DNA of 64,000 bases from Paractinoplanes abujensis. Its GTDB lineage: Bacteria > Actinomycetota > Actinomycetes > Mycobacteriales > Micromonosporaceae. A program made the position numbers and the translations under genes. The stretch covers positions 4,898,001-4,962,000 of the forward strand of contig NZ_JACHMF010000001.1 of the NCBI RefSeq assembly GCF_014204895.1, written 5' to 3'. The notes under the pieces are model-generated. The model was not told the origin of the DNA, ran no database searches, and worked only from the letters and a program-made list of their open reading frames with translations. This document shows positions 8,406 to 64,000 of the stretch, piece after piece (position 1 is the first letter of the stretch; each line of letters starts with the position of its first letter).

Positions 8406-8428
8406 ACTCTAGCTGGACCCTCCGACAA
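8406..8428 (-). promoter_or_regulatory. RecA-NDp/PafBC-type promoter of dnaE1
   Basis: On the minus strand TTGTCG (8428-8423), GAG, an 8-nt spacer and TAGAGT (8411-8406) fit the published mycobacterial RecA-NDp consensus tTGTCRgtg-N8-TAnnnT, apart from the weakly conserved gtg. Predicted transcription starts near 8399, giving a ~27-nt leader with an AAGGGGG ribosome-binding site. The match is read from sequence; damage induction is inferred. Confidence 0.55.
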
Positions 8429-52986: not shown

Positions 52987-53009
52987 AGGCTAGCCCGACC
53001 CCCTGACAA
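52987..53009 (-). promoter_or_regulatory. RecA-NDp/PafBC-type promoter of dinB
   Basis: TTGTCA (53009-53004), GGG, 8 nt and TAGCCT (52992-52987) on the minus strand match tTGTCRgtg-N8-TAnnnT. Seven nucleotides beyond the -10 lies position 52980, the first base of the dinB GTG. Confidence 0.6.
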
Positions 53010-55432: not shown

Positions 55433-58400
55433 TCAGCGGAAGTCCCGGGAGCCCGGCGCCACCGGCGGGGTGAGCGCCTCCAGCCGATCGGCCACCAGGT
55501 TGAGCACACTGCCCTCGGCGACCTTCTCCAGCCGGCCCCGCACGATCAGGGCCGTGCTGGTGCGGGCCACCCGCCGGTAGCGCTGCCACAGCCCCGGCGA
55601 GCAGGTCACGTTGAGCATCCCGGTCTCGTCCTCGAGGTTGATGAACGTGACCCCGCCCGCGGTCGCCGGCCGCTGCCGGTGCGTGACGATCCCGCCGACC
55701 CGGATGCGGGTGCCCGCCTCGACCCGGCCCAGCCGGTTGATCGGGATCGCGCCCGCCTGGTCGAGGTCGGCCCGGATGAACTGGGCCGGGTGCGAGTCGG
55801 GGGACAGCCCGGTGGCCCACACGTCGGCCACGAGTTCGTCGACCGCGCTCAGGCCGGGCAGCATCGGCGCGTCGGTGCCGGTCACCGTGCCGGGCAGACG
55901 GTCGGGCCGGTCCTGCGCGGCGGCCCCGGCGGCCCACAGCGCCTCCCGCCGGGTCAGGCCGAAACCGGCGAAGGCGTCGGCGGTCGCGAGGGCTTCCAGG
56001 TGCGCGGTGGAGCATCCCGTCCGCCGGGCCAGATCGGTCATTCCCCCGTACGGGCCGTGGGCGCGCCGCTCCTGCTCGATGCGCTCGGCCAGGCCCTCGC
56101 CCAGCGAGCGGATGCTGCCCAGCCCCTGCCGCACGGCCGGCCCGCCCAGCCCCCACGCGTGCGGCGGCTCACCGGGCAGCGCCCCCCAGCGGGTCTGCGG
56201 CGTCGATTCCAGCGTGGCCCGGGCATCGCTCAGGTTGATGTCGGGCCGGCGCACCTCGACCCCGTGCCGGCGGGCGTCGTCGACCAGCGACTGCGGCGAG
56301 TAGAAACCCATCGGCTGCGCGTTGAGCAGTGCCGCGCAGAAGGCCGCCGGGTGATAGCGCTTCAGCCACGCGCTGGCGTAGACGAGATAGGCGAAACTCA
56401 TCGAATGGCTCTCCGGAAAGCCGTAGTTGGCGAACGCGGAAAGCTTCACGAACAGGTCGTCGGCGAGCTGGCCGGTGATGCCGTTGGCGGCCATTCCCTC
56501 ATACAGGCGCCGCTTGATTTTCTCCATCTTCTCGACCGACCTTTTCGAGCCCATGGCCCGGCGCAGCTGATCCGCCTCGGCCGGGTCGAAACCGGCCACG
56601 TCGATCGCCAGCTGCATGAGTTGCTCCTGGAAGAGCGGCACCCCGAGCGTCTTCTCGAGCGCGTTGCGCATGAGCGGATGCGGATAGGTGACCTCTTCCA
56701 GACCGTTCTTGCGCCTGATGAACGGATGCACCGAGCCGCCCTGGATCGGGCCCGGGCGAATGAGCGCGACCTCGACCACCAGGTCGTAGAACTCGCGCGG
56801 TTTGAGCCGGGGCAGGGTGGCCATCTGGGCCCGGCTCTCCACCTGGAAAACGCCCACCGAATCGGCCCGGCAGAGCATGTCGTAGACCTCGGCATCGGTC
56901 AGGTCCATGGTGGAGATGTCCAGGTCGGATTCGATCATTTCGTACGCGTACCGCAGCGCGGACAGCATGCCCAGCCCCAGCAGATCGAACTTGACCAGTT
57001 CGATCGCTGCGCAGTCGTCCTTGTCCCACTGCAGCACCGTGCGGCCCGGCATCCGCCCCCACTCGACCGGGCACACCTCGATGATCGGCCGGTCGCAGAT
57101 CACCATGCCCCCGGAGTGGATGCCCAGGTGCCGCGGGAAGTTCTGCACCTGATTGGCGAACTCGACGACCTGGGGCGGGATGTCCTCCACGTCGACCGTG
57201 GCCGCGCTCCCCCACCGGTCGATCTGCTTGCTCCACGCGTCCTGCTGCCCCGGCGAGAAACCGAACGCCTTGGCCATGTCGCGCACCGCCGAGCGCGGCC
57301 GGTACGAGATGACGTTCGCGACCTGGGCCGTGTGCTCGCGGCCGTGCAGCTCGTAGACGTGCTGGATGACCTCCTCGCGCCGGTCGGACTCGATGTCGAC
57401 GTCGATGTCGGGCGGGCCGTCGCGCTCCGGGGCCAGGAACCGCTCGAACAGCAGGTTGTGCGCGACGGCGTCCACATTGGTGATGCGCAGCGCGTAACAG
57501 ACCGCCGAGTTGGCCGCACTGCCCCGGCCCTGGGCGTAGATCCGGTTGTCCCGGCAGAACTTGACGATGTCGTACACGACCAGGAAGTAACCGGGAAACC
57601 TGAGCTCCTCGATCATCCGGAGCTCGTACTCGATCTGCCGGTACGCCCGGGGGTGGGCCTCGGGCGGGCCGTAGCGGTCGAGGGCGCCGCGCATGGTGAG
57701 TTCGCGCAGCCAGCTCATCTCGGTGTGGTTCGCCGGCACCGGAAAATCGGGCAATCTCGGCGCGACCAGGTCGATGTCGAACGCCAGACCCTCGCCGAAC
57801 ATCGCGGCCGCCTCGACCGCGCCCGGGTAGGCGGCGAACCGGCGGGCCATCTCGTCGCCGCTGCGCAGATGGGCGGCACCGGCCGCGGGCAGCCAGCCGT
57901 CGATCTCGTCGAGGCCACGGCGCGCCCGCACGGCGGCCAGGGCGGTGGCCAGCCGGCGCCGGGCCGGTGTCGCGTAGTGCACGTTGTTGGTGGCCACGAC
58001 CTCCAGGCGGCGGCTCTTGGCCAGCGCGAACAGGACGTCGTTGCGGTCGTCGTCGTACGGGTCGCCGTGCGAGGTCAGCTCGACGGCCACGTTCGGCCGG
58101 CCGAACAGGGAGACCAGCCGGTCCAGCTCGTACGCGGCGGCCTCCACCCCCTCCGTGGCCAGCGCGAGCGGCACCGTGCCCTTGCGGCAGCCGGTGAGGA
58201 TCAGCACGTGATCGCGCAGGTTGGCCGCGATGTCCTCCAGATCCCCGTACTCGGGCTTGCCCTTCTCCCCGCCCGCCAGCTGGCCGCGGGACAGGGTGGT
58301 GGCCAGCCGCGCGTACCCCTCGTGACCGTGCGCGAGGGCCAGCAGGTGACGGCCCTCCGGGTCGGCCTCACCGTTCTGCGGCTTGGTCAGATCGAGGGAG

Positions 58401-58780
58401 AGCTCCGCGCCGAAGATCGTGGGCAGGCCCAGCTCACGAGCGGCCTGCGAAAACCGGACCACGCCGTAGAAGCCGTCGTGGTCGGTCACGGCCAGCCCGT
58501 TCAGACCCAGGCGGGCGGCCTCCTCGGCAAGCTCCTCGGGGTGGCTGGCGCCGTCGAGGAAGCTGAAGTTCGTGTGGCAGTGCAGTTCCGCGTACGGGGT
58601 GCGGTTCTCCCGGCGGATCAGGGCCGGCGCCTCGTACGCCTGCCGCTTGCGCGACCACGCGGGCGAGTCACCACCGTCCCCGTCGACAGCCAGCGGATCG
58701 ACGACGTGCTTGTCGTCCTTGTGGGAGGACAGCGTCTTCTCGAGGTCGGCCCACGAGATCTTGGGGTTATGAAAGCCCAC
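55433..58780 (-). CDS. dnaE2: Error-prone DNA polymerase DnaE2 (ImuC)
   Basis: A 1115-residue C-family polymerase specialised for mutagenic translesion synthesis. The PHP domain begins at AELHCHTNFSFLDG (residues ~65-78). The palm has YAQGRGSAANSAVCYALRI, then PPDIDVDIESDRREEV with the catalytic acidic residues. A C-terminal OB domain (IRVGGIVTHRQRP) is present. DnaE2 works with ImuA' and ImuB after DNA damage. The GTG start at 58780 is 8 nt downstream of the imuB stop, placing it last in the cassette. Confidence 0.96.
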   Translation of the reverse strand: MGFHNPKISWADLEKTLSSHKDDKHVVDPLAVDGDGGDSPAWSRKRQAYEAPALIRRENRTPYAELHCHTNFSFLDGASHPEELAEEAARLGLNGLAVTDHDGFYGVVRFSQAARELGLPTIFGAELSLDLTKPQNGEADPEGRHLLALAHGHEGYARLATTLSRGQLAGGEKGKPEYGDLEDIAANLRDHVLILTGCRKGTVPLALATEGVEAAAYELDRLVSLFGRPNVAVELTSHGDPYDDDRNDVLFALAKSRRLEVVATNNVHYATPARRRLATALAAVRARRGLDEIDGWLPAAGAAHLRSGDEMARRFAAYPGAVEAAAMFGEGLAFDIDLVAPRLPDFPVPANHTEMSWLRELTMRGALDRYGPPEAHPRAYRQIEYELRMIEELRFPGYFLVVYDIVKFCRDNRIYAQGRGSAANSAVCYALRITNVDAVAHNLLFERFLAPERDGPPDIDVDIESDRREEVIQHVYELHGREHTAQVANVISYRPRSAVRDMAKAFGFSPGQQDAWSKQIDRWGSAATVDVEDIPPQVVEFANQVQNFPRHLGIHSGGMVICDRPIIEVCPVEWGRMPGRTVLQWDKDDCAAIELVKFDLLGLGMLSALRYAYEMIESDLDISTMDLTDAEVYDMLCRADSVGVFQVESRAQMATLPRLKPREFYDLVVEVALIRPGPIQGGSVHPFIRRKNGLEEVTYPHPLMRNALEKTLGVPLFQEQLMQLAIDVAGFDPAEADQLRRAMGSKRSVEKMEKIKRRLYEGMAANGITGQLADDLFVKLSAFANYGFPESHSMSFAYLVYASAWLKRYHPAAFCAALLNAQPMGFYSPQSLVDDARRHGVEVRRPDINLSDARATLESTPQTRWGALPGEPPHAWGLGGPAVRQGLGSIRSLGEGLAERIEQERRAHGPYGGMTDLARRTGCSTAHLEALATADAFAGFGLTRREALWAAGAAAQDRPDRLPGTVTGTDAPMLPGLSAVDELVADVWATGLSPDSHPAQFIRADLDQAGAIPINRLGRVEAGTRIRVGGIVTHRQRPATAGGVTFINLEDETGMLNVTCSPGLWQRYRRVARTSTALIVRGRLEKVAEGSVLNLVADRLEALTPPVAPGSRDFR

Positions 58781-58788
58781 GGAAACCC

Positions 58789-60780
58789 CTAGTCATAGAT
58801 CGCCTCGACGGCCCAGTGCCCGCCGGACAGGCTGAGCAGGAACGCCCGCCCGTCTTCGAGCACCACCTGAAAACGGGCCCGCCGCCGGGCCTCGTTCGCG
58901 TCCCACCAGCGCTCGTCCACCGGCCAGGGGCCGGCCCAGCCGGTGATGGGCACCGGACGGGACCGCTCGACGATCAGCGCCGCGGGGCTGCCGGTCAGCT
59001 CGAGCCGGGCGCTCACCCCCACCGGGTCGCCGTGGCCGTCGAGCACCACTGCAGGTAGCGCCCTCGCAGGGACGATGGCCGGCGCGGGTTTGGGCAGTTT
59101 CCCCGGCCACGGCGGCTCTTGGGGCTGCTTCTTCCGCGCCTTGCCGGTGCTTGCCCGGCCCCGGCCCGGTGTCGCCTCCGCGGCGGTCGTCCACCTCTGG
59201 GCCGCCTCCGCTTCCGCCCCTGCCTGCGCCTCCGCCTGCGCGTTCGCCCCTGCTTCGGCTTTCGTCCCTGCTTTGGCTTTCGCCTCTGCCTTTGCTTTCG
59301 CCTCCGCCGCGGCCCATTCCGGCATTTCGCCCGCCGGGGCTCGCGTTGGCTGCCCGCCCGGCACCAGCCCCAGCACCGGCCGGCGAGGGCGCGCGTCGTC
59401 GTGGGCAGACTCATCCCGTACGGGAAAAGGGGTCGTCGGGGAGGGCAGGGCGAGCTCGGGCTGGATGTGGTGGGACAGCACCGGCACGGTCCTGATGCCG
59501 GGGATCGGGTCGGTGTGCGGGGCCGCGGGCCGGTGGGGTTCACGCTCGTCGCCCCACGGGACCAGGCGGATCTGGTCGTCGGCGTTGCGGCCACCACCCA
59601 GCACGGGAGTGACCACCGACTCGGGGCCGAGCAGACCCTGCACCCGGCTGAACGCGCGATGCGCCCGCTCCCGGTCGGCCCCGGCGTCACCCCACAGGCC
59701 GGGCTGCAGTCCAAGATGGACCAGCACGCCGTCGGGGACCAGACGCAGCCGGACGAGACCGGCGGTCGGCCGGGCGGGCGCACCACGGCGGGCCCCGGTG
59801 AGCCAGCCGTCGAGCTGCCAGCGGACCCGTTCGGCGATCGCGGCCGAGGTCAGCGTGCCGTCGTGCCGCCACACCCGGTGCAGCTCCTGACCGTTCGCGG
59901 TGACCGCCTCGATGCCCAGGCGGGTGCAGGCCAGCCCGTGCGCGGCCAGCTTGTCGTGCAGCCGCTCGGCCAGCGCGCGCCCCGCGAAGGCGGCCACGTC
60001 CACCCGTTCCAGCGGCTCGTCGTACGTCTCGGAGACCTCCAGATCGGGCGGCGGCCGGCGCACCGCCAACGGCCGATGATCGAACCCCGCCGCGAGCCGG
60101 TGCGCCAACGCCCCGTCGAAGCCGAACCGGGTCAGCACGTCCCCCGGCGGCAGCGCCGCGAACTCGCCCAGCGTCTTGAGGCCCAGCCGTTTGAGCAGGT
60201 CGGTCAGCTCGGGTCGTTCGATCGCCTCGATCGGCTGCCCCCGCAGGAAAGCGGCCGTCTCGCCGGGCGGCACAACCCGGCCCGCGCGGGCCGCCAGTCC
60301 CGCCGCGAACACCCCCTCGGCGATGCCGACCTGGCTCTCCACCTCACACGACTCGGCGACCTGCTCGACGATCCGCTCGGCCGCCGCCTCCTCCCCGCCG
60401 AAGTAACGCGACGGCCCGCGGGCGGCCACCGCGCACGCCCCCGGCCGGATCACCTCGACCCCCGCCGCGACTTCCTCGACGGCCGCGACCACCGGCTCGA
60501 ACGCACGCGCATCCCGCCCCGGATCGTGCTCGACCGCCACCACCTGCGGGCAGCGGCTCTGCGCCTCCCGCCGCCGCAGCCCCCGCCGTACGCCCTCCCG
60601 CCGGGCCGCCTCCGAACAGGCGACCACCCGATTACCGTGCAACACGATGACCGGTTCCGCGGCCGCCACCCCCAGCACGATCTCAGCCGCGATGACCGGC
60701 CAGTCCGGACACCAGAGCAGCATGGTCCGAGCCCCGACGGTGCCCGCCACCACCCGGCTGCCCGCTTCCTTGCCCCCCAC
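58789..60780 (-). CDS. imuB: ImuB, inactive Y-family polymerase homologue
   Basis: A 663-residue Y-family-like protein. The N-terminus has MLLWCPDWPVIAAE, where catalytic Y polymerases have LHVDMDAFFAS, so the catalytic aspartates are absent as in known ImuB. RPGACAVAARGPSRYFGGEE and the little-finger-like region follow. QIRLVPWGDER (~residue 425) may be the beta-clamp contact. A long Ala/Lys/Glu/Gly low-complexity linker (~residues 487-530) precedes a conserved C-terminal ImuB domain. GTG at 60780 is 1 nt after the imuA' stop. It acts as the hub of the mutasome. Confidence 0.9.
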   Translation of the reverse strand: MGGKEAGSRVVAGTVGARTMLLWCPDWPVIAAEIVLGVAAAEPVIVLHGNRVVACSEAARREGVRRGLRRREAQSRCPQVVAVEHDPGRDARAFEPVVAAVEEVAAGVEVIRPGACAVAARGPSRYFGGEEAAAERIVEQVAESCEVESQVGIAEGVFAAGLAARAGRVVPPGETAAFLRGQPIEAIERPELTDLLKRLGLKTLGEFAALPPGDVLTRFGFDGALAHRLAAGFDHRPLAVRRPPPDLEVSETYDEPLERVDVAAFAGRALAERLHDKLAAHGLACTRLGIEAVTANGQELHRVWRHDGTLTSAAIAERVRWQLDGWLTGARRGAPARPTAGLVRLRLVPDGVLVHLGLQPGLWGDAGADRERAHRAFSRVQGLLGPESVVTPVLGGGRNADDQIRLVPWGDEREPHRPAAPHTDPIPGIRTVPVLSHHIQPELALPSPTTPFPVRDESAHDDARPRRPVLGLVPGGQPTRAPAGEMPEWAAAEAKAKAEAKAKAGTKAEAGANAQAEAQAGAEAEAAQRWTTAAEATPGRGRASTGKARKKQPQEPPWPGKLPKPAPAIVPARALPAVVLDGHGDPVGVSARLELTGSPAALIVERSRPVPITGWAGPWPVDERWWDANEARRRARFQVVLEDGRAFLLSLSGGHWAVEAIYD

Positions 60781-60781
60781 G

Positions 60782-61996
60782 TCACATCACAGCCGTCACT
60801 CGGTGCTCGCTCTTCTTCGCCCGAAGAGCCACCACCCGCCGATCCCCGGCCCCCACGCCGCCGGCCTCGACACCCGCTTCGCCGCCGGCCTCCGCTTCCT
60901 CCCCGGCTCTCTCTCCGACGCCGGGCTCCTGCCTCGCCCACTCTCCAGCGCGCCTCTGCTTTCCCACGTTCTCCCCGGGGCGCCTCTCCTGCCCCGCACT
61001 CTCCCCAGTACGCCTTTCCCGGCCCGCACCTTCCCCAGCGCGCCGCTCCCCTCCGGCACCCTCCCCGACGCGCTGCTCGCCTCCGGTTCTCTCCCCAGCG
61101 CGCCGCTCCCCTCCGGCACCTTCCCCAGCGCGTCGTTCCCCTCCGGCGCTGACTTTCTCGCCGGCTCCCATCGGCTCGTCCTGTTCGGGTGGCGGCACCA
61201 GGGACAACTGGGGCGAATAACCCGCGCTCGCGGCTGGGGACGGCTTCGGGGTGGTTGGCGAGGGGACGGCGGTGAGGTGCGGCCGGGTCCGGCGCTCCAT
61301 CGTGGAATCGTTCTGGGCGGGAGCCGGGGGCAACGGCAGCCGGCGGATCGTGACGCCCGGCATCCACATGGTCACCTCTTTGGGGCGGGCCGCCGCACCG
61401 CGGCCGCGGGCCAGCACCCGCACCTCGCGGCGGCGCAGACGGCCGTGGCCCTCGTCGAGGCCTTCCCAGCGGGCTTCGAGGACGCTCAGGGTCACGTCGG
61501 CGCCGGACCAGTCCCCGTACGGGACCAGCACACTCCCCCGCTGGCGGGCCCGGGCCACCAGGCGGGAAGCGATCGAGGCGGAGACGCCGCCGGGGACGGC
61601 CAGCACGATGACGTCCACGCCGTCGATCAGCGCAGCCACGACGGTGGGCCACTCCGGCCCGGGGTCGGGCACCAGCGCGAGCCGGTCGAGCGCGATGCCG
61701 CTCTCGGCGGCGGCGGTCGCCCCCAGCGAGGGCACGCCGACCACGGCACACCACGACCCCGTACGGGAGGCTTCGGCCAGCAACGCCAGCACCAGCGACG
61801 TCCCGCCCGCGGCGGTGGCCGACCGGCCTGCCGCCACCGCGACGGTGCTGCCCCGGCGCAGTCCGTGCCCGGGCAGCAGCGCACTCAACTCGGGCGCGAC
61901 CGGCAACGTCCGGTCGATGCCCGACGTCTCGGTCTCACCCGCCGCCCGCACCAGTTCAGCAAGGGCGGCCGCACCGCTGATCATGCGTCCCGCCAT
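60782..61996 (-). CDS. imuA': ImuA' (RecA-like) mutasome accessory protein with repeat tail
   Basis: A 404-residue protein. Residues ~35-220 form a RecA/SulA-like core (LPGHGLRRGSTVAVAAG with a degenerate P-loop, then IVLAVPGGVSASIASRL), matching actinobacterial ImuA'. PQLSLVPP at ~262-269 resembles a clamp-binding motif. Residues 285-364 comprise eight tandem 10-residue units (consensus GGERRAGEGA), then an acidic tail. The ATG at 61996 has AGG 6 nt upstream. It is 1 nt upstream of imuB. Confidence 0.85.
   Translation of the reverse strand: MAGRMISGAAALAELVRAAGETETSGIDRTLPVAPELSALLPGHGLRRGSTVAVAAGRSATAAGGTSLVLALLAEASRTGSWCAVVGVPSLGATAAAESGIALDRLALVPDPGPEWPTVVAALIDGVDVIVLAVPGGVSASIASRLVARARQRGSVLVPYGDWSGADVTLSVLEARWEGLDEGHGRLRRREVRVLARGRGAAARPKEVTMWMPGVTIRRLPLPPAPAQNDSTMERRTRPHLTAVPSPTTPKPSPAASAGYSPQLSLVPPPEQDEPMGAGEKVSAGGERRAGEGAGGERRAGERTGGEQRVGEGAGGERRAGEGAGRERRTGESAGQERRPGENVGKQRRAGEWARQEPGVGERAGEEAEAGGEAGVEAGGVGAGDRRVVALRAKKSEHRVTAVM
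60905..61144 (-). repeat. 30-bp minisatellite, eight copies, in imuA'
   Basis: Eight in-frame 30-bp units encode 10-residue repeats, the first four nearly identical (GGERRAGEGA type) and the last four increasingly diverged. Units keep the reading frame, so the count can vary without inactivating the gene. Confidence 0.85.
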
Positions 61997-62468
61997 GTGT
62001 TGCCTCACTCTTGTTGCCTGTTCTTCCTGCCTGCCCCCCGTCACTGACGCCCACCCGGCGAGCAGGCATGACTGATCAGCGGCCTCCTGACGGGAAGCCG
62101 CCGAGCAGCGGGGAAGAACCGCCCGGACGGGTCCGGGGTACAACGGGCCGTCGTCTCGCCGGCCGGGAAAGCCGACGGCGAGAGACGACCGGGTCAAGGC
62201 CGCGGCCAGGGTCACCCGGCCCGGCCCGGCCCCGGCCCCGACCAAGATCAGCCGACCACGGCTAGCCAGTCAGCCAGCTACAGCCAGCCAGCCAACCAAC
62301 CAGTCCCAGCAAGCCAGTCCCAGCCAACCAGTCCCAGCAAGCCACGGTCAGCCAGTCAGGGCCGCCGGCCACGGCCAGCCGGCCCCGGCCGGCCAGTCAG
62401 GGCCAGCCGGCCACGGTCGGCGGGTCAGGCGGCCACGGTCGGCGAGTCAGGCGGCCACGGTCGGCGGG
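61997..62468. other. 472-bp gap between the HEPN gene and imuA', repeat-rich
   Basis: From ~62260 to 62474 the sequence consists of GCCAGCCA/CAGTCCCAGC-type short repeats that grade into a 22-bp tandem repeat at the end of the HEPN gene. From 61997 to ~62250 nothing is recognised except a weak in-frame extension of imuA'. No LexA box or RecA-NDp site is visible here. Confidence 0.55.
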
Positions 62469-62474
62469 TCAGGC
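62409..62474. repeat. 22-bp tandem repeat, three copies
   Basis: GGCCACGGTCGGCGGGTCAGGC begins at 62409, 62431 and 62453, with a single-base difference in the second copy. The array runs up to and over the stop codon of the HEPN gene (62469). Confidence 0.85.
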
Positions 62475-63602
62475 GGCCAGCGGGGGCTGATAGGTCAGGC
62501 CCAGCGACGACTCGACCACGGCCACGAACTGTTCGGCGGCCCGCAACAGGTCGTCGGCCTCGCGGGGGGTCACGACGCGCGGGATGCCGGCTTCGGCCGC
62601 GGCACGTTTGGAGGCGCCGAGGGCGAAATAGTTGGCCCATTCGCCGAAGTCGGGCGCCACCAGCACCAGCAACGACCAGACGCTGGTCACCTTGCTGCGG
62701 CGGCTGGCCGGTGCGGGGCGGGCCCGGGCCGCGAGCACGGCGGCCGCGGCGCGCAGGGCGGCCAGGTGGGCCGTCGCGTAACGAATGCCGTCGGGCTGGG
62801 TGCGCGCCGCCTCGGCCAGCCCGTCGCGGGCGATGGCCAGCAGCTGCGCGGGCGTGCGCTGCGGAAGCATGTGAGCCGGCACGGTCGGGGCATCGGCCCG
62901 GGCCGCCGCCGTGGGCGCGTGCGCCAGCCCCGGCACGCTCAGCCCGGAAACATCCACACCGGACGAGCCCCGCCGGGAAGACACTCCGCCACCGGCCGCA
63001 GCCGAAAGCCCGGAGCCGGCCGCAGCCGTCGCGGGCCCAGCCACCTGGCGAGGCACTGCCGGACCGGAGGGCTCCCGGGGGCCAGGGGCCGAGGCAGAAA
63101 CGGAGGACCCGCTGTGGCTGAGGGCCGGGGCAGGAACAGCGGGCTCTCGGTGAGCGGGCGCCGACGACGGATCGGGTGCAGCCTGGCGGGGCACGACCCA
63201 GCCGGAGGCGCGGGCCATGACCGAGCCGGAAGGTTCTTCGGGGGCCGGACGGGAGGACGGCGCGCTGGTGAAGACCGACGGGTCGATGAGGGCCGTGCGG
63301 GCCGAAGCCGCGCGAGGCGTCGCCGCGCGAGCCGGGGCCGAAGCGGTCGCGTCAGGCGTCACGCCGGGGGTGGCCAGCCCGGGGAGCGCGGGGTATGCGT
63401 AGGGCGCGCCGGGGGCGGCGGAACCGGGCGATGGCGCGCCTGGCGTGGCCGGACGCGGGGGGACCGGGGCCGGGCCTGCCGAGGCCGGGTGTGTCGAGGC
63501 CGAAGCTGAGGCCCGGCCGGCATGGGCCGAGTCAGCATGGGCCCGGCCGGCATGGGCCAGGTCGGGAGCCGGCAAAAGGCTTGGCGCCGTGTGGCTCGCC
63601 AT
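62469..63602 (-). CDS. SAV_6107-family HEPN-domain protein of the mutasome cassette
   Basis: A 377-residue protein. Residues 1-240 are Ala/Pro/Ser-rich and probably disordered. The C-terminal ~130 residues are all-helical and match the SAV_6107-type HEPN domain (QLLAIARDGLAEAARTQPDG and FGEWANYFALGASKR). RYATAH at 274-279 is an R-x4-H pattern, as in HEPN ribonucleases; activity is unproven. The ATG at 63602 follows GAGGAGAG. It is the first gene of the HEPN-imuA'-imuB-dnaE2 order and lies ~310 nt downstream of a LexA box and a RecA-NDp promoter. Confidence 0.82.
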   Translation of the reverse strand: MASHTAPSLLPAPDLAHAGRAHADSAHAGRASASASTHPASAGPAPVPPRPATPGAPSPGSAAPGAPYAYPALPGLATPGVTPDATASAPARAATPRAASARTALIDPSVFTSAPSSRPAPEEPSGSVMARASGWVVPRQAAPDPSSAPAHREPAVPAPALSHSGSSVSASAPGPREPSGPAVPRQVAGPATAAAGSGLSAAAGGGVSSRRGSSGVDVSGLSVPGLAHAPTAAARADAPTVPAHMLPQRTPAQLLAIARDGLAEAARTQPDGIRYATAHLAALRAAAAVLAARARPAPASRRSKVTSVWSLLVLVAPDFGEWANYFALGASKRAAAEAGIPRVVTPREADDLLRAAEQFVAVVESSLGLTYQPPLAA

Positions 63603-63688
63603 GTGTCTCTCCTCGCGTGTCTCGCATCCGACGTGCCGGGTCGAACCGAGGCGCTGCGGAGGAAGGAGCAGCAGCCCCGTGGTGGTGA

Positions 63689-63728
63689 CCGGCCGGGTGT
63701 GAAGCTTCCCCACACCACACCCGGCCGG
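63689..63728 (-). promoter_or_regulatory. Perfect 13-bp hairpin in the HEPN gene leader
   Basis: CCGGCCGGGTGTG (63689-63701) and CACACCCGGCCGG (63716-63728) flank a 14-nt loop, 87 nt before the HEPN ATG and downstream of the promoter. It has no U-tract, so a role in leader RNA structure or pausing is more likely than simple termination. Confidence 0.55.
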
Positions 63729-63912
63729 ACCTGCCGGCGGGTCCGTCGCCCGCCACCCGGGGGTCGGGGGCAGCGGACGACGGTCCTGCCTTGTCTGAAG
63801 GCCCGGACCCGCGAATGCCCGGAACCTCATGCGCAGCACTTCGCGGGTGCCACGCTGTGGGAGCCGCGCCGCGAAACACGGCCCCCGGTGTCAGCCCGGA
63901 CGTTCGAGCGTT

Positions 63913-63928
63913 TCGAACATCCGTTCTA
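63913..63928. promoter_or_regulatory. LexA (SOS) box
   Basis: TCGAAC-ATCC-GTTCTA matches the actinobacterial LexA consensus TCGAAC-N4-GTTCGA with one mismatch. It sits just downstream of the RecA-NDp -10 at the expected transcription start, a good repressing position. Confidence 0.75.
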
Positions 63929-63938
63929 ACTAAGGAGA

Positions 63939-63961
63939 AGACTAGCACTGACGTACGACAA
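63939..63961 (-). promoter_or_regulatory. RecA-NDp/PafBC-type promoter of the mutasome cassette
   Basis: TTGTCG (63961-63956), TAC, 8 nt and TAGTCT (63944-63939) on the minus strand match tTGTCRgtg-N8-TAnnnT in all strongly conserved positions. Transcription would begin near 63932, immediately before the LexA box, implying dual LexA and PafBC control. Confidence 0.65.
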
Positions 63962-64000
63962 AAATGCAAGACGGCGCGAGTCAGCCCAGCCGGAAGAGTT

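Follow-up and report, generated by a model that had tools for sequence, protein, structure and literature searches.

Mutasomes stand for deliberate mutation-making under stress, and the locus described here raised the question of how such a system was opened when its promoter carried the marks of two damage response pathways, and of what the transcript carried ahead of its first gene. The window (the whole stretch of DNA that was analyzed, 64,000 nucleotides from a soil actinobacterium) held the following genes.

62469 to 63602, minus strand: HEPN_SAV_6107 gene (PF18726, E 2.7e-34)
60782 to 61996, minus strand: imuA' (NF058630, 175.8 bits, cut-off 65)
58789 to 60780, minus strand: imuB (PF00817, E 1.6e-16)
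55433 to 58780, minus strand: dnaE2 (NF004225, error-prone DNA polymerase, 1485.6 bits, cut-off 939)

Pfam and NCBIfam models bore out the order HEPN-imuA'-imuB-dnaE2 that an earlier note on this DNA had given, with the mutasome genes imuA', imuB, and dnaE2 in one cassette. The HEPN gene started at an ATG (63602-63600) behind a GAGGAG. All four genes were found in this order in 32 of the 36 same-genus stretches; the exceptions were a cut stretch (G001), one whose stretch gave neither an imuB nor a dnaE2 match (G006), one without an imuA' match (G015), and the extra copy in G032. The HEPN protein had an Rx4-6H motif of the R-x4-H form (RYATAH), in which the R was invariant and the H was kept in at least 90% of 16 sequences. 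We took this motif to be the HEPN ribonuclease signature, and an RNase activity of this protein is a prediction. A sequence search of PDB gave no match to it. Low-complexity repeats (cagccagccaacc) followed the HEPN gene (window 62240-62470), and the N-terminal region of the HEPN protein and the C-terminal region of ImuA' also looked repetitive by eye.

Architecture of the promoter site

The promoter pair (NDp motif and LexA box) was located 310 nt upstream of the operon and consisted of the following elements.

63964 to 63969, minus strand: TTGCAT, -35-like element, 19 nt from the -10 element (spacing counted over composite rows)
63956 to 63961, minus strand: TTGTCG, -26 element of the PafBC/RecA-NDp type (motif match, conservation)
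63939 to 63944, minus strand: TAGTCT, -10 element, with an upstream TG that gave it an extended -10 look
63931 to 63932, minus strand: predicted transcription start, +1 at about 63932 (from spacing only)
63913 to 63928, minus strand: LexA box TAGAACGGATGTTCGA with one mismatch (motif match, conservation)

On the minus strand the order was therefore TTGCAT, TTGTCG, 11 nt, TAGTCT, and, after a further 10 nt, the LexA box. The TTGTCG (63961-63956) and the TAGTCT (63944-63939), 11 nt apart, agreed with the consensus TTGTCR-N11-TANNNT of PafBC-dependent (RecA-NDp) promoters, given as tTGTCRgtg-N8-TAnnnT in the available text of PMC5656591. This NDp motif, which the earlier note had pointed out, was real and conserved among relatives. 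The near-consensus LexA box (63928-63913) was confirmed as well; its single mismatch to TCGAACN4GTTCGA was the second base, and its conserved position at the promoter made the operon a predicted member of the LexA/SOS regulon. The two signals had been said to abut and overlap. They were indeed close together, but that wording was loose, the LexA box lying 10 nt downstream of the -10 element. A conserved AGTTAGAACG started at the predicted transcription start, and relative to this start the LexA box would cover approximately +5 to +20.

The earlier note had missed the 310-nt leader with its structured RNA and also the conserved TTGC/TTGAC element, which stood some 19 nt away from the -10 element and was more constant than the strict NDp motif. 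A TTG[AC] stood 19-20 nt from the -10 element in 38/39 and 27/27 composite rows. TTGTCR was also kept across relatives, and the 11 nt after it were variable. The left half of the LexA box read TAGAAC (63928-63923) in 34/39 and 25/27 composite rows (59/66). This conserved deviation may tune the affinity of the box or the transcription start.

Conservation of the composite site

In the same genus, the composite was defined as an NDp motif and a LexA box, each with at most one mismatch, at an offset of 32-34. It was present at 34 of the 37 HEPN copies, with an exact NDp in 33, and the offset was 33 in 29 of the 34. The misses were two loci at contig ends (G012 and G020) and the second HEPN copy in G032, which had no imu genes. 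On the reverse strand of these HEPN copies the composite was found in 0/37. Among the named loci, it occurred in 29/35 of those from Micromonosporaceae and near relatives and in 0/45 of the remaining ones (44 Streptomyces-type, 1 Modestobacter). Of the loci from the order's other families, 8/20 had it at a looser spacing of 18-40. Micromonospora promoters often had TCGTCG in place of TTGTCG, and the LexA boxes were the most constant part of the promoter across families. In the class, the composite pattern was present in 114 of 394 genomes, and the reversed control pattern gave 8 hits (our own count over all rows); a HEPN gene was found at 17 of the 30 class composite loci that were fetched. 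This conservation in the same genus, in the named loci, and in the class led us to reject a chance motif.

Some other class composite loci had ruvC-like (L254, L256, L258, L259) or 13E12/HNH-like genes (by eye), and some had no clear target. A separate observation concerned the Streptomyces-type HEPN loci (L170-L218), 40/44 of which had TTGTCAGTG within 450 nt upstream, possibly a PafBC-type element. According to the available part of PMC9380542, the M. smegmatis motif was seemingly not conserved in S. venezuelae.

The NDp motif in the genome

The NDp motif marked a DNA-repair regulon in this genome. Exact TTGTCRN11TANNNT matched 40 times in 9.33 Mb, versus 8 times for the reversed pattern, and at 20 of the 40 sites a start codon lay 6-8 nt past the motif (our own reading). 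Eighteen proteins downstream of these sites, picked by eye beforehand, were scanned, several of them being fragments below the full-length cut-off at stretch ends. Seventeen belonged to DNA repair, replication, segregation, or Pup families, and the remaining one was of the magnesium-chelatase family. The targets included pup, ligA, uvrA, uvrB, polA, dnaE1, dinB, pcrA, recA, scpA, and a gyrB/parE gene, together with a PD-(D/E)XK nuclease, a pol III delta'-type subunit, a RadA-like ATPase (named by eye), a helicase, a methyladenine glycosylase, and an AlkZ-like glycosylase. Several of the other 22 sites, which were outside the protein scan, looked unrelated to repair. Exact NDp motifs were also present in the window at 8406-8428 and 52987-53009, upstream of dnaE1 and a dinB-like gene. 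The exact NDp at the pup gene (L013:1501-1786) pointed to a possible PafBC-Pup link outside mycobacteria.

Only this one of the 40 sites had a LexA box (at most 2 mismatches) within 100 nt downstream. The recA site was the only other one with a LexA box near the NDp motif at that threshold, the recA box (2 mismatches) lying 69 nt upstream of its NDp. A TTGC-type element was found at only 2 of the 40 sites, namely this one and L036. The regulators were encoded: PafC (PF19187; best PDB match PafC 7p5x, E 1.9e-77), an adjoining WYL/WCX protein as PafB, RecA, and three proteins above the LexA model cut-off (L220, L221, L222). The available text of PMC8223512 states that several genes bear both motifs and that RecA-NDp promoters reach beyond mycobacteria.

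A structured leader RNA

The sequence between the promoter and the HEPN gene contained a folded leader.

63603 to 63932, minus strand: the operon's structured leader RNA, approximately 330 nt (fold z-score, conserved hairpins)
63743 to 63783, minus strand: hairpin H4, loop CGACCCCC
63690 to 63727, minus strand: hairpin H5, loop GGGGAA (GGGGAAG at 63705-63711)
63653 to 63672, minus strand: hairpin H6, whose loop contains CUUCCUC (63659-63665) and is complementary to that of H5
63609 to 63614, minus strand: GAGGAG, the HEPN gene's Shine-Dalgarno sequence, which complements the H6 loop as its putative partner

The leader (333 nt) had a fold z-score of -6.13 against shuffles. Removing near-identical leaders kept 46 of 55, and 36 of the 46 were in alignment A3; the leader alignments left out L145, L147, and L148, which had no recognized start codon, and G001, G010, and G032b, which were at least 440 nt long. 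In H4 and H5, 99.1% of the alignment cells were paired, while slid versions paired 35-53%. Changes on both sides were seen in 14 of the 30 pairs, with 43 such cells versus 9.5 in shuffles (0/500 as high); in H4, two-sided changes occurred in at least one sequence for 11 of the 15 pairs. The cross-family comparison gave a similar picture, with 14/20 pairs changed on both sides and 45 cells versus 9.0 in shuffles (0/500 as high). The 24 sequences of alignment A4 were picked for having both loops and their loop conservation was by construction, therefore only the A4 stems counted as a test. Among 20 folded loci, two (G039, G040) lacked the full two-hairpin unit and three (G024, G044, G049) had it in part. 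A coding region was rejected because the alignment columns paired and changed together and the lengths varied. A known RNA was rejected too, as Rfam 15 gave no match at the gathering score for the window's own leader and 9 loci.

The GGGGAAG of H5 and the CUUCCUC (or CUUCCCC) of H6 could form 7 pairs at -8.2 or -11.2 kcal/mol, and these complementary loops probably kiss. Alternatively, the CUUCCUC loop would pair with the HEPN Shine-Dalgarno, and thus the leader may set the translation of the operon. The loops were nearly invariant and it was the stems that covaried, so covariation cannot test these loop-loop and Shine-Dalgarno pairings. A further kissing interaction between H1 and H3 (UUCGCGG with CCGCGAA) was suggestive.

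Instead of a translation switch, the hairpins could form a transcription attenuator, or the leader could be cut off as a damage-induced small RNA. Their high stability and single copy would fit such a role, as would the invariant loops, which are typical of protein- or RNA-binding RNAs. On the other hand, the sequence had no U-tract after the leader hairpins, and what directly followed the element was either the Shine-Dalgarno region or a short upstream ORF. We considered a role of this kind unlikely.

Distribution of the leader RNA

With strict filters, model R1 found one sense copy per genome in 35/36 same-genus genomes and none in 24 other genomes; G008 had an extra weak antisense match at the same place. 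Single-locus matches at the same place were found in Catellatospora, Rhizocola, and two Micromonosporaceae MAGs, and weaker ones in other families. The idea that R1 was confined to one family, as the strict filters implied, was dropped on account of these weaker matches, which led to model R2. In many loci R1 also matched weakly on the antisense strand over these palindromic hairpins, and L146 and L165 each had a weak match elsewhere. In other families the loops GUGGGGAAGC (or GAGGGGAAGC) and CUUCCYC were kept and the stems were changed. The loop pair GGGGAAGC and then CUUCCYY was present in 74/167 loci, namely 35/37 from the same genus, 7/20 from other families, 30/80 named, and 2/30 from the class; it was absent from the Streptomyces-type loci. 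At other places in approximately 282 kb of the organism's own sequence (some stretches overlapping), 0/12 occurrences of GGGGAAGC had a CUUCCYC 15-60 nt further on.

Model R2 matched in 22 of 197 class genomes; it was trained on A4, and this genome and G109 among its matches were not independent. A LexA box (at most 1 mismatch) lay within 420 nt upstream of 17/22 matches and a HEPN gene downstream of 16/22, the other six having no HEPN match in the stretch (L309, L312, L316, L317, L319, L320). An NDp motif (at most 1 mismatch) was found at only 5/22. Thus, the leader RNA went with LexA rather than with PafBC. Four R2 matches from one family (L309, L317, L319, L320) had the GUGGGGAAGC hairpin between nrdR and the B12-dependent reductase gene nrdJ (positions about 1480-1560, reversed in L319), with NrdR assigned by Pfam in L319, the reductase by Pfam in L319 and L309, and the rest by eye. 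Therefore, hairpin H5 alone was not specific to the mutasome operon.

The same layout in mycobacteria

The earlier note had contrasted this locus with mycobacteria, where the signals were said to be separate. The contrast held for recA but failed for imuA'. The mycobacterial sample consisted of 25 genomes of genus g8, which was inferred to be Mycobacterium, and imuA' was found in all 25. Upstream of it were TTGACG (25/25), TGTC[AG] (22/25, by eye), and a LexA box with at most one mismatch (25/25), and the three elements stood in the same close order in 22/25. We therefore dropped the overlap as a mark setting this group apart from mycobacteria. The 11-nt hexamer spacing could not be called diagnostic of PafBC promoters either, as the strict NDp motif (at most 1 mismatch) stood just upstream of the imuA' LexA box in only 8/25 of these genomes because the distance from TGTCG to TACT was 18 nt, not 16. 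By eye, the distance from TTGAC to TA was constant at about 25-26. According to the available part of PMC10421592 (citing Adefisayo 2021), the mycobacterial cassette was controlled by both the SOS and the PafBC pathways. The idea of dual control was therefore already known.

Logic of the combined promoter

We interpreted the site as a LexA-gated, PafBC-activated mutasome promoter feeding a structured leader RNA, with a probability of roughly 0.65. Combined LexA and PafBC-type control, as the earlier note had proposed, was the best reading because the signals were real and conserved, PafBC and LexA were encoded, and the NDp motif marked the repair regulon. The frequent TCGTCG in Micromonospora, the 8/25 fit of the strict motif at the inferred mycobacterial imuA' promoters, the lack of the composite in 45 named loci, and the preference of the leader RNA for LexA counted against this interpretation. 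The available text of PMC11804915 describes PafBC as an ssDNA-activated factor that inserts itself between the promoter and domain 4 of sigma, where it contacts the -26 motif. By analogy, ssDNA-activated PafBC would bind TTGTCG and recruit the housekeeping RNA polymerase to the -10 element, and LexA over about +5 to +20 would block the polymerase until RecA filaments triggered LexA cleavage. A LexA box in this position would obstruct the PafBC complex, which suggested AND-like logic dominated by LexA: release of LexA would be required, and the strength would be set by PafBC. The poor 19-nt-spaced -35 element could let some transcription through without PafBC. The transcript would then bear the folded leader, in which the H5 and H6 loops may kiss or the H6 loop may pair with the HEPN Shine-Dalgarno.

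Alternatively, either pathway alone could induce substantially, LexA being an imperfect roadblock over which PafBC can fire, in which case the adjacency of the sites would only save space. For the mycobacterial cassette of the same layout, the accessible text of PMC10421592 describes the two inputs as a fail-safe with partial redundancy for UV and mitomycin C. Moreover, PMC12702967 reports, in the part available, that biofilm dnaE2 in a pafBC mutant was lower than in the wild type yet widespread, with recA as the main route; the two reports speak against a strict AND gate. However, PMC10421592 also calls mutagenesis co-dependent on both pathways, and the promoter that the LexA box would cover at about +5 to +20 was the only conserved one. 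As far as PMC8151990 is available, it states that the induction of imuA', imuB, and dnaE2 in M. tuberculosis required RecA although PafBC acts without RecA, which would be expected if LexA dominates; it also describes a residual dnaE2 up-regulation without recA and with pafBC knocked down, which was not seen for imuA'-imuB. Such OR-like control seemed to us rather improbable. It was very unlikely that the polymerase simply used TTGCAT and TAGTCT under LexA repression, with no PafBC role for TTGTCG: the constant 19-nt position of the -35-like element, the constancy of the LexA boxes across families, and the stronger association of the leader RNA with LexA than with NDp elsewhere fitted this, but TTGTCR was kept while the following 11 nt varied, the same motif marked the repair regulon here, and the TTGC element was missing at 38/39 other NDp sites.

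On the LexA-gated, PafBC-activated reading, this geometry places LexA on top of the PafBC start site, and point mutations within a single reporter could directly show how SOS and PafBC combine. A functional leader RNA would bring RNA-level control to mutagenesis and connect an uncharacterized HEPN protein of wide conservation with the response to DNA damage. We tentatively proposed, at a little short of even odds, that Actinobacteria have a damage-induced kissing-loop RNA between a LexA-gated promoter and an HEPN_SAV_6107 operon (often with the mutasome). It would be an undescribed class of cis-acting RNA that controls programmed mutagenesis as a third gate and that the neighboring HEPN protein may read or cut.

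Comparison with known systems

The site shared with RecA-NDp/PafBC-dependent promoters the motif, its -26 position, the repair regulon, and the presence of PafBC. In contrast to it, the other NDp sites of this genome, except recA, had no nearby LexA box (at most 2 mismatches). The recA P1/P2 promoters have both regulators in common with the site, but the recA LexA site stands apart, here by 69 nt.

Kissing loops and anti-Shine-Dalgarno loops are known from a class of 5' leader RNAs. The leader described here resembled these RNAs in having hairpins with complementary conserved loops upstream of the ribosome site, and differed in matching no Rfam 15 family.

The closest system was the mycobacterial imuA'-imuB/dnaE2 mutasome, with the same genes, the promoter elements in the same close order (22/25), and both pathways acting on it. 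Unlike the operon here, the mycobacterial cassette is split, according to the available literature excerpts. Additionally, the mycobacterial imuA' coding region began about 30-100 nt past the LexA box (by eye), which left no room for a 310-nt leader or a HEPN gene. Thus, the promoter was a well-conserved case of a known dual control, and the leader RNA was the part that may be new.
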